Shown: positions 41,407 through 44,688 of the stretch, in pieces
Numbering within the stretch: the stretch's first letter is position 1
Layout: every line of letters starts with the position of its first letter
Assembly (NCBI GenBank): GCA_026413885.1
Contig: JAOAKA010000001.1
Span: 240,762-304,761, forward strand
DNA: 64,000 nt
DNA from: Sulfolobales archaeon
GTDB lineage: Archaea; Thermoproteota; Thermoprotei_A; Sulfolobales; NBVN01
Direction: 5' to 3'
Translations under genes and position numbers: made by a program
The notes under the pieces: generated by a model
Seen by the model: only the letters and a program-made list of their open reading frames with translations
Database searches by the model: none
What the model was told of the DNA's origin: nothing

Positions 41407-41450
41407 CTATTTATGTATTCGCTATTGATAAGTCAGATTAGGTGTTCCGA

Positions 41451-42038
41451 ATGGAGTCTTCGGGAAGTCTCTTAGATGAACTATGCTGGGTTATGAAGTA
41501 CATGTATGCTAAAGGCTTGATATCCGCTCTAAGTGGTAATATTAGTATTAAGCTAGATAGTACTAAGATAGCGATAACACCCTCCGGTAAGATAAAGTTT
41601 CTTCTTAAACCGGAGGATATATCTATAGTAAACACTAGTGGAGAATGCTTAAGTGGTCCGAAGCCCTCTGTAGAGATTGACATGCACTTAAGGATATACT
41701 CTAGCTGCTCTGAGTGCAAGTCGGTTGTACACGCACACGGACTTCTCTCACCTCTACTAGTAGGACTTTTAGAACCTGTTGAAAACTTAGAGATTAGAGC
41801 CTATGGGATCAAGATCTGCTATGTAGGTGAGCTACCTCCAGGGTCTAGAGAACTTGCTGAAGCAGTAAGTAAAGCAGTATCAACCGGCTGTAAAGCTGTC
41901 GTATTAAAAAATCACGGAATTGTGGGAGTAGGAAGAAGTCTCGGAGAAGCACTCGAAGTTATTGAAGCTGTAGAAAACTCTTTTAAGAAGAGCTTAGTAC
42001 TCTATGTGCTAAATAAGCTGAAGGCTATTTCTATGTAG
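41451..42038 (+). CDS. Class II aldolase/adducin family (fuculose-phosphate aldolase-like)
   Basis: The protein has the zinc site HAHGLL and a second His in KNHGIVGVG, plus SALSGNISI at the phosphate site and PSVEIDMHL before the first His pair. Candidates are L-fuculose- or L-ribulose-type phosphate aldolases or a methylthioribulose dehydratase; the sequence does not decide. ATG 41451 follows GGTG. It may act with DeoC next door in sugar-phosphate breakdown. Confidence 0.87.
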   Translation: MESSGSLLDELCWVMKYMYAKGLISALSGNISIKLDSTKIAITPSGKIKFLLKPEDISIVNTSGECLSGPKPSVEIDMHLRIYSSCSECKSVVHAHGLLSPLLVGLLEPVENLEIRAYGIKICYVGELPPGSRELAEAVSKAVSTGCKAVVLKNHGIVGVGRSLGEALEVIEAVENSFKKSLVLYVLNKLKAISM

Positions 42039-42103: not shown

Positions 42104-42469
42104 TTACTCGAGGAAAAACATCTTCTTCAAGATTCTCATAAATCCTCTGCTTCTCTTCTTTTCCCGACTCTTTATAGATTCTAATACTTCCTCACCATAG
42201 AGTGCAGCAATTAACATCTTAGACTGCTGATCCTGCATGTTTTCCGGCTCTATTCCCTCTGCTATCACTAGTAGTCTATCTAGTTCTTCTTCAGTTGCGT
42301 AATCCAGAGGACTACCTACTCTTTTATGAAGCTCCCAACGCTGATATAGTTGTGTTAGTACTCCTACGGCTTCATCATTTGAGTAGAAAGCTGCTTTCCT
42401 CCATGGTTCAAAGCTTAAGTCTACTAATTCCATAAGTCTTCTCTTCTTAGACTCTATACTCGCACACAT
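42104..42469 (-). CDS. Small charged protein, unknown
   Basis: The 121-residue protein is helical and charged, with a basic C-terminal end (KKRSRGFMRILKKM). It stands alone on the minus strand between two plus-strand genes. No family is recognised and no motif is seen. Codon use matches the neighbours, so I keep it as a probable gene. Confidence 0.55.
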   Translation of the reverse strand: MCASIESKKRRLMELVDLSFEPWRKAAFYSNDEAVGVLTQLYQRWELHKRVGSPLDYATEEELDRLLVIAEGIEPENMQDQQSKMLIAALYGEEVLESIKSREKKRSRGFMRILKKMFFLE

Positions 42470-42520: not shown

Positions 42521-43228
42521 TTGAGTGTAGAATCTAAGATAATTAAATACTTGAAAGAGAATCCGGGAGCAACTCCTAGGCTAATAGCTGATGCTCTAGG
42601 GCTTCCGATGAGTCAAGTTCGACTAGCTCTCAGCAAACTGAGAGACTCTGGTTACGTAGTCAGAGTTCCAGGCGAAGGATACTTTGTAAGAGTAGCTGCA
42701 GACTCTAGGAGTGTAGTGGAAGTTGAGGTAAACCACAACTCAGAGTTAAAGAGGGAGAGAGGCTACAGTGTGACCCAGTTTATTGAGAGGATTAGAGAGG
42801 CTGTTGATAGTCTAACCGGTAGAGTAGATAAACTTGAAAAAGAAGTAAAGGAAATTAAACTAACTCTCGAAGCACTCAGTAGAGCAATTCAGGAACCTAG
42901 GCAGAGGGTTTCAACGAGTTCTGAATCTCGCGAAGATATTGTTGTCAAAGAATTGAAGAGTAAAAAGATCATGAAAATTAGTGAGCTTCTAGCTATGGCT
43001 ACGAAACCACTAGAAGAATACATAGAGACTGGGGTATTGAAAATAGTGTCCGACTTAGCTGTCTATTTTGAGTTCTACAACTACTTCGTAGGTAGGTTTC
43101 CGATAGGAAAACTTGAAGTATCTAAGTTAAGCAGTGAGGAAAGAGAACTTATGAACGCTATGATCAAGGAGGGAATGGTCTACCTACATAGTGGAAGAGA
43201 GTATAGGTTAGTTCTCCCTCAGTCTTAA
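42521..43228 (+). CDS. Winged-helix protein with coiled coil
   Basis: Residues 1-60 form a clear winged helix (IIKYLKENPGATPRLIADAL, then MSQVRLALSKLRDSGYVVRV). Residues about 85-125 form a coiled coil (FIERIREAVDSLTGRVDKLEKEV pattern), and a second helix-rich domain ends the 235 residues. It is probably a DNA-binding, dimerising regulator. TTG start. It precedes the RNA-ligase-like gene on the same strand with a 113-base gap. Confidence 0.7.
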   Translation: MSVESKIIKYLKENPGATPRLIADALGLPMSQVRLALSKLRDSGYVVRVPGEGYFVRVAADSRSVVEVEVNHNSELKRERGYSVTQFIERIREAVDSLTGRVDKLEKEVKEIKLTLEALSRAIQEPRQRVSTSSESREDIVVKELKSKKIMKISELLAMATKPLEEYIETGVLKIVSDLAVYFEFYNYFVGRFPIGKLEVSKLSSEERELMNAMIKEGMVYLHSGREYRLVLPQS

Positions 43229-43341: not shown

Positions 43342-44688
43342 GTGCTTGATGATATAACTAAGAAGTGTGCTGGAAACTCTATATGTGTTGTTGAAGAATT
43401 TAAGCTACGTCTAGATGAAGGCTACAATCCAACGCAAGATGAGGTAAGATATGTCTCATTCCTACTGGGTGAAACCACGAAGAGAGTTGAAGTTCTAAGT
43501 AGTAGATATGTCAATATTTTTACACACTTAATAGAGAAAAACTGTAGTTATATTGGTAATGAATCTCTCTGCATATATACATGGAATCCAAAAATACCTG
43601 TGAAGTACTTTCCAGTTTCTCTCGATGCTACAGGCACTGTGCTTTACATCAGTAAGTCTCAGGTTTCCCTAGTTGCGTACCCGGTACACAGATCTTACGA
43701 CATAGAGAGTAGTGGTGTCAAAATACCTGAACTAGATAAAAACAAGGTAGTAGAGATAACTTCCAGAGTTGATGGATATCAAATTACTTTCTACTTCAAT
43801 AACTTGCTTAAGAAGTGGGTTCCAGCTACTAGATACGTTCTCCACAATATGAGGTATATAAAAAATAGGTTGGTAGTAGATGATTTAAATAATATAGTTA
43901 ACCCATACGCTGCAGTAGCTAACTACATAGCGCAGAATAAAGGTCTCTACGAGAGAATCGAGAATATGGTTGGGTGGACACTTACCTTTGTCTTAGAGGC
44001 TCCGGAACCAGCTATAGTGAGACCCAATATAGAGCTTTATAGCTATGAAGACTTCAGACTATATTTAGTGAGTGCTCGCAGCCCTAGTGGACATCTACTA
44101 ACTACAGCAGAGTCTTCCCAGCTAGTAGGCTGGGAGAGTGTTCCAGTTGAAAAAGTTGAAGTAAGCAGCTCAGATGAACTGAAAAAACTTATTGATATGT
44201 GGAGCACAGATATCTACATAAGATCGAGATTCGTGAGATTCGCGACATCGGATTCCGTGAGACCATACGTAGTTGAAGTAAGATCAAAACTCTATGAAAA
44301 CTCTGTTCTTGTTAAATACTTCTCCGACCCAAAGTCACTCATAGTCTTAGCTTCCTACGGATTTGGTGATGAAGGAGTTAGGTTATTAACAGACTATAGA
44401 GACGTTAGAGAGGTAGGTAGAGAGATATGTGAGCTATATCGAGAACTCAGAGATATTGTTTCCTCACTGCTGGAGAGCACCATGTTAGAGGACTTTATGA
44501 GAGATCTGAAGATGCCTAGAGACCTACTTGGAGAACTTGAGAAAGCGAGACGTTCAGGAAGCTCCGATAGATTTACTAGAAAACTGTCTCTAGCTGTCTC
44601 TAGTGATAATATCTACGAAACAAGAGATAGATTAAAAACGTTCGTAGAAGAACTAAAGAAGAGAGTGAAAGCACATCAAAATAGTTGA
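43342..44688 (+). CDS. RNA-ligase-like protein, catalytic Lys replaced by Arg
   Basis: The 448-residue protein shows the order of nucleotidyltransferase motifs found in T4 Rnl1-type RNA ligases: a VAYPVHRSYD segment, then motif I as SRVDGYQITF (141-150), a WVPATRY segment, motif IIIa as WTLTFVLEAPEPAIV (212-226 with E219), and a motif V-like YVVEVRSKLY (309-318). In active ligases motif I reads KxDG and motif V has KxK; here R142 replaces the Lys and E/R appear in motif V. It may be a pseudo-ligase RNA binder. This rests on pattern comparison by eye. Start GTG. Confidence 0.55.
   Translation: MLDDITKKCAGNSICVVEEFKLRLDEGYNPTQDEVRYVSFLLGETTKRVEVLSSRYVNIFTHLIEKNCSYIGNESLCIYTWNPKIPVKYFPVSLDATGTVLYISKSQVSLVAYPVHRSYDIESSGVKIPELDKNKVVEITSRVDGYQITFYFNNLLKKWVPATRYVLHNMRYIKNRLVVDDLNNIVNPYAAVANYIAQNKGLYERIENMVGWTLTFVLEAPEPAIVRPNIELYSYEDFRLYLVSARSPSGHLLTTAESSQLVGWESVPVEKVEVSSSDELKKLIDMWSTDIYIRSRFVRFATSDSVRPYVVEVRSKLYENSVLVKYFSDPKSLIVLASYGFGDEGVRLLTDYRDVREVGREICELYRELRDIVSSLLESTMLEDFMRDLKMPRDLLGELEKARRSGSSDRFTRKLSLAVSSDNIYETRDRLKTFVEELKKRVKAHQNS

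Follow-up and report, generated by a model that had tools for sequence, protein, structure and literature searches.

An arginine-bearing protein family of the T4 Rnl1 fold in Sulfolobales archaea as a candidate pseudo-RNA-ligase

What does an RNA ligase fold do when its adenylation lysine has become an arginine? The question is raised by an open reading frame with a GTG start at 43342-44688 on the forward strand of the window (the whole 64,000-nucleotide stretch of Sulfolobales archaeon DNA analysed here), which encodes a 448-residue protein and is present in one copy in its 1.3-Mb archaeal genome. Here, we propose that this protein is an Rnl1-fold pseudo-RNA-ligase, that is, a pseudoenzyme that lost lysine adenylation once, was kept by selection and holds RNA, and we put the probability of this reading at roughly 0.55. 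We classify it as a pseudoenzyme because a whole clade has lost catalytic residues and yet kept both gene and fold. In the literature searched (open-licence papers), we came across no previous account of a pseudo-RNA-ligase spanning an entire clade in archaea.

Fold and active-site positions

Sequence searches assign the protein to no family. Pfam and NCBIfam gave zero matches even at E ≤ 10 (TIGR01209 among the models left unmatched), PHROG and PADLOC offered no useful family, and PDB sequence searches returned nothing other than chance or coiled-coil matches. Likewise, PF09511 was absent from the Pfam matches, at E ≤ 1, of 19 members of the family formed by the window protein and its arginine-bearing homologues (the Arg family, or Arg-forms).

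An AlphaFold2 model, computed from alignment A3, which comprises the window protein and 24 relatives, has a pLDDT of 94.5 and a pTM of 0.89. In a Foldseek comparison with the PDB, its first three matches are all T4 Rnl1 (2c5u, E 1.8e-12; 5tt6, the K99M mutant; and 9do4), followed by fungal tRNA ligase, archaeal Rnl and Naegleria Rnl, with 8uce and 5d1o at ranks 6 and 7, and among viral models the best matches are almost all RNA ligases. By profile comparison (hhalign), the Arg family aligns with archaeal PF09511-bearing proteins with intact motifs at E 1.2e-17 and a probability of 98.9%, and with a second group of lysine-bearing proteins (L096) at E 2.5e-8. Because the first of these values comes together with a model that ranks T4 Rnl1 first in the PDB, the motif pattern is not a product of chance, and the protein, as modelled, has the covalent nucleotidyltransferase (T4 Rnl1) fold. 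The ligase motif order, the SRVDG motif I and the missing motif V lysine pair described in the initial annotation are confirmed by MAFFT alignment, hhalign and AlphaFold2/Foldseek, and the nucleotidyltransferase fold that it expected is the one predicted. Counting against our proposal, the whole-chain TM-scores of the model against the PDB are only 0.42-0.44, with a large rmsd, from which we take the domains to be placed unlike those of T4 Rnl1, the local fold agreeing. The Arg-form protein further differs from T4 Rnl1 in its extra N-terminal helices (about 60 residues), in an identity of only about 15% and in its lack of a Pfam match; its C-terminal region (residues ~318-448; 44293-44685, forward strand) is all-helical by DSSP on the model.

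With T4 Rnl1 (RnlA; PF09511) the Arg family shares the overall fold and the order of motifs, which we followed in a MAFFT alignment of the family with T4 Rnl1 and ten archaeal relatives that carry the lysine (Lys-forms). All coordinates that follow are on the forward strand. At T4 R54, the RG of the Lys-forms is Thr97 and an invariant Gly98 in the window protein (43630-43635), and TG, NG, GG or FG across the Arg family; T4 K75 is Lys in the Lys-forms and Arg or Lys in the Arg family. Motif I, S141-R142-V143-D144-G145 (43762-43776), places Arg142 (codon aga, 43765-43767) on T4 K99, which is Lys in the Lys-forms and Arg in the Arg family, with the R, D and G all invariant in the latter and the residues at D101 and G102 common to both groups. 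Both groups also have Thr at S118, followed at K119 by Arg in the Lys-forms and Arg or Lys in the Arg family. In the motif III region, F216-V217-L218-E219 (43987-43998), V217 falls on T4 E159, which is Glu in the Lys-forms but Val, Met, Ile or Asn in the Arg family, whereas R182 is Arg in both. At motif IV, R294-S295 (44221-44226) stands in place of T4 E227-G228, which are Glu and Gly in the Lys-forms and Arg or Pro and Ser or Ala, respectively, in the Arg family. At motif V, E312-V-R314-S315-K-L-Y318 (44275-44295) replaces K-x-K-S-x-x-Y, with E312 and R314 aligned with T4 K240 and K242. The first of these is Lys in the Lys-forms and Glu or Asp in every Arg-form, the second Lys in the Lys-forms and variable in the Arg family, while S243 (mostly Ser in the Lys-forms) and Y246 (Tyr in the Lys-forms, with a gap in one) are Ser and Tyr in the Arg family.

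The Arg family thus retains D101, G102, T/S118, K/R119, R182, S243 and Y246, so that the core of the fold (the DG of motif I, the T/R after it, R182 and the Ser/Tyr of motif V) survives, whereas R54, K99, E159, E227 and K240 are replaced clade-wide; these five, along with K242, are kept in 10 of the 10 archaeal Lys-forms. Of the features of an Rnl1-type ligase, the window protein has the fold (by AlphaFold2 and Foldseek and by hhalign to PF09511 members), and the Arg family lacks K99, R54, E159, E227-G228, K240/K242 and, in the members searched, a PF09511 match above the gathering score.

In T4 Rnl1, R54, E159, E227 and K240 bind phosphate and metal, and formation of lysyl-AMP requires the nucleophile together with phosphate- and metal-binding residues. 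The Arg-form protein would therefore be unable to form lysyl-AMP or to seal RNA, as we infer from the absence of the nucleophile and of the phosphate and metal residues and from the change, in the Arg family, of both positions aligned with MthRnl K97 and K246. An alternative is that the protein is still an enzyme but a rewired one, in which another residue (for example His168) takes the nucleotide, or in which a non-lysine step acts on a pre-activated end. MthRnl K97A, from which the motif I lysine has been removed, still seals pre-adenylated RNA (PMC3514331), and modelling has led to the proposal that DpRNL, the deviant RNA ligase 2, has rewired its ATP contacts (PMC4599027). DpRNL resembles the Arg-form in having the ligase fold and in that the usual role of the motif I lysine is in question, but it belongs to the Rnl2 family and keeps this lysine (K20), which the Arg clade has lost (PMC4599027). 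Against a rewired enzyme, the MthRnl double mutant K97A+K246A, in which the lysines of motifs I and V are both changed, is inactive in all ligation steps (PMC3514331), R54, E159, E227 and K240 are gone from the Arg family in addition to the nucleophile, and H168 has no T4 Rnl1 counterpart in the alignment. We consider a rewired enzyme unlikely.

Altered chemistry is kept in consideration mainly because of an unexplained block specific to the Arg family, T163-R164-Y165-V166-L167-H168-N169-M170 (43828-43851), in which R164 lies on T4 K119 and the T, H, N and M are invariant. Its consensus in the Arg-forms is T-R/K-Y/F-x-x-H-N-M; at this site the Lys-forms have WNM, WSH or WME, or lack it, and one of them (L087) has in common with the Arg family an NPxV and WNM insert region. 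The invariant R142, D144, Y151, T163, H168 and N169, with the nearly invariant E/D312 and K/R331, look like a working pocket, which counts against a pseudoenzyme and leaves room for altered chemistry; H168, N169, Y151, D144, E/D312 and K/R331 likewise favour the rewired enzyme. That a rebuilt active site (Arg142, Asp144, His168-Asn169, Glu312 and Lys331) performs RNA-end chemistry without lysyl-AMP, replacing the Pab1020-type ligase where that is lacking, strikes us as very doubtful. A nucleotide sensor, whose pocket would bind ATP, NAD or a similar molecule non-covalently and signal, would suit the retention of the motif I DG, T163 and R/K164, but the residues at T4 R54, E159 and K240 are lost, the last by charge reversal, and we regard such a sensor as a long shot.

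Conservation, descent and selection

The initial annotation had asked whether residue 142 is always arginine or the window protein carries a lone mutation. In a motif scan, Arg occupies this position in 77 of 77 gene-bearing loci and motif V begins with Glu or Asp in all 77; many of these loci duplicate one genome, and by our own count they comprise 31 distinct sequences. Across these 31, whose identity falls as low as about 30%, residue 142 is always arginine, and lysine is found only in a separate, motif-intact group. The SKW88 homologue is 77% identical to the window protein. In a tree of 36 sequences, all 25 Arg-forms lie on one side of a branch (support 100/99; 100% of bootstrap trees), set apart from the lysine-bearing relatives and T4 Rnl1, with a single state change in 100% of bootstraps. 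L088, T4 Rnl1 and L090 form long branches, which makes the order within the lysine side unsure.

For the window gene against the relative closest to it, dN is 0.132 and dS 1.4 (dN/dS 0.09), and for L027 against L028 dN is 0.101 and dS 0.491 (dN/dS 0.2). From ratios of about 0.1-0.2, it follows that the Arg-form gene is functional and under purifying selection, and its open frames are full-length in nearly all carrier genomes. A decaying, functionless remnant, or a lone mutation in one genome, might have been suspected from the patchy occurrence of the gene (30 of the 214 genomes of the order), but this reading is refuted by the universal Arg142 and by dN/dS, and its probability is negligible. 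The idea in the initial annotation of a ligase fold conserved without its nucleophile is hence supported by the predicted fold, the single Arg clade (100/99) and dN/dS.

Residues invariant in 25 of the 25 Arg-forms of A3 include C68, C77, Y79, G98, T99, P114, R142, D144, G145, Y151, T163, H168, N169, M170, P188, R246, G250, P308, S315 and Y318, and position 331 is Lys or Arg throughout. As a separate observation, Cys68 (43543-43545) and Cys77 (43570-43572) lie on a predicted beta hairpin, are invariant in the Arg family and are common to most Lys-forms; the pair is likely a disulfide.

By profile and tree, the nearest relatives of the Arg family are the Lys-forms L020-L024, L087, L088, L090 and L095-L097, which stand on the other side of the 100/99 branch and differ in their intact K-x-DGT, motif III Glu, EG and KxK. 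The search of the order found L020-L024, five proteins of about 337 residues from one genus that have EKLDGT, EG and KxK as well as the Glu of motif III and match PF09511 (RNA_lig_T4_1) at up to 7e-13; L087, L088, L090 and L095-L097 are additional. Judging by their motifs, the Lys-forms are expected to be active. Some of the archaeal T4-Rnl1-like proteins with intact motifs (L022, L090, L087, L095-L097 and L088) lie at or below the Pfam cut-off, L087 being missed by Pfam at E ≤ 0.01, and one genome (G045) encodes two of them, L022 and L090.

Distribution among genomes and proposed role

The Arg-form gene is found in heat-loving archaea, and the records of named relatives are from Sulfolobales, Desulfurococcales, Desulfurococcaceae, Pyrodictiaceae, Acidilobaceae, Aeropyrum, Ignisphaera and two Thermoproteales. 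The 30 carrier genomes of the order are what is left of 36 matches after five Lys-forms of the L020 type and G141 are set aside, and they include a contig-end fragment (G062). Outside the order, an evenly drawn sample of the phylum yielded the Arg-form in just two genomes, both from a single genus. A viral origin of the gene was considered and dropped, as IMG/VR and phage records hold no relative of the Arg-form protein.

Dead subunits are often regulatory or structural partners of active enzymes, and the Arg-form protein might be such a subunit of RtcB or of some other ligase active in RNA repair. The window's genome, the only one searched for RtcB, does encode it, and one genome (G111) has a Lys-form Rnl1 paralogue beside its Arg-form. 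However, at the thresholds applied, neither a PF09511 nor a TIGR01209 ligase was found in the window's genome, and among the 30 Arg-form genomes a Lys-form Rnl1 occurs in one (G111) and an intact Pab1020-type ligase (TIGR01209) in two (G032 and G152). Because they are absent from most Arg-form genomes, neither is an obligatory partner, and an obligate partnership with active Rnl1 or Rnl3 is rejected; we hold a subunit role in general to be improbable.

The Pab1020/MthRnl-type ATP-dependent ligases, treated in a review of archaeal ligases (PMC4606414), have the same superfamily fold as the window protein (8uce and 5d1o in Foldseek) but form a separate family that is seldom found in the same genome. 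Their intact gene occurs in 65 of the other 184 genomes (Fisher two-sided p = 0.001 against the 2 of 30 Arg-form carriers; p = 0.003 when families f5, f9 and all others are taken as strata). The Arg-form thus tends to be absent where an active Pab1020-type ligase occurs, which we treat as a lead only, because the comparison is not corrected for phylogeny, the genomes being related to one another, and includes some incomplete genomes. One Arg-form carrier (G160) contains stop-broken pieces of a TIGR01209 gene.

If the protein is indeed a pseudoenzyme, what might its role be? Adenylation would have been lost in an ancestor common to lineages of Sulfolobales (as delimited by GTDB, with Desulfurococcales included) and one or more genera of Thermoproteales, after which the gene would have been kept under purifying selection. 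Arg142 and Glu/Asp312, at the sites of the catalytic K99 and K240, probably form a putative pair that fills or closes the nucleotide pocket, and the remaining groove and the invariant H168-N169-M170 would hold RNA. The likeliest ligand would be the end of an RNA or else a stable, structured one (tRNA, rRNA fragment or C/D box sRNA), which the protein would protect or chaperone in place of joining it. RNA binding is the most likely function because the gene is under selection and the fold, apart from catalysis, serves to hold RNA ends; the initial annotation, too, had a putative RNA-binding or regulatory role in view.

The Arg family offers a natural set of substitutions (K99 to R, K240 to E, E227 to R and E159 to V) in which catalysis would appear to be lost and selection persists, and it could reveal what the ligase fold does for RNA besides sealing. 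Should the avoidance of the Pab1020-type ligase hold on a proper species tree, it would suggest that the two have a substrate in common, for example rRNA fragments or C/D box sRNAs. C/D box sRNAs are a reasonable candidate because the excluded archaeal Rnl, of the Pab1020 type, circularises them (PMC9014305).

Gene neighbourhood

In the window, a winged-helix coiled-coil gene (235 residues; 42521-43228, forward strand) precedes the Arg-form gene and glmS follows it. The upstream gene, already pointed out in the initial annotation, is real (Pfam HTH_24, 1.1e-7), but the link that its position hinted at was dropped: in the 24 Arg-form neighbourhoods compared, it adjoins the Arg-form only in the window and the closest relative (L025), and single-sequence folding of its product gave a poor model (pLDDT 51.7). 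Similarly, glmS is downstream only in five close relatives (the window and L025-L028). A conserved operon was rejected, as no neighbour is conserved across the 24 neighbourhoods, and the lack of one that would name a pathway counts against the RNA role of the proposed pseudoenzyme. A link to tRNA in the window was dropped too, as ARAGORN, run with the bacterial code, found no tRNA gene there.

Two minor recurrences were observed. In two separate lineages, a small protein without a Pfam match is encoded no more than a few kb from the Arg-form gene (42104-42469 on the reverse strand of the window; L025, 8804-9163; L044, 6817-7152; L048, 6590-6898). A class II aldolase gene (PF00596) is near the Arg-form in 5 of the 24 neighbourhoods (the window, at 41442-42038, L025, L029, L037 and L042) and lies directly downstream of it in L037 and L042, a recurrence that may reflect chance or old linkage.
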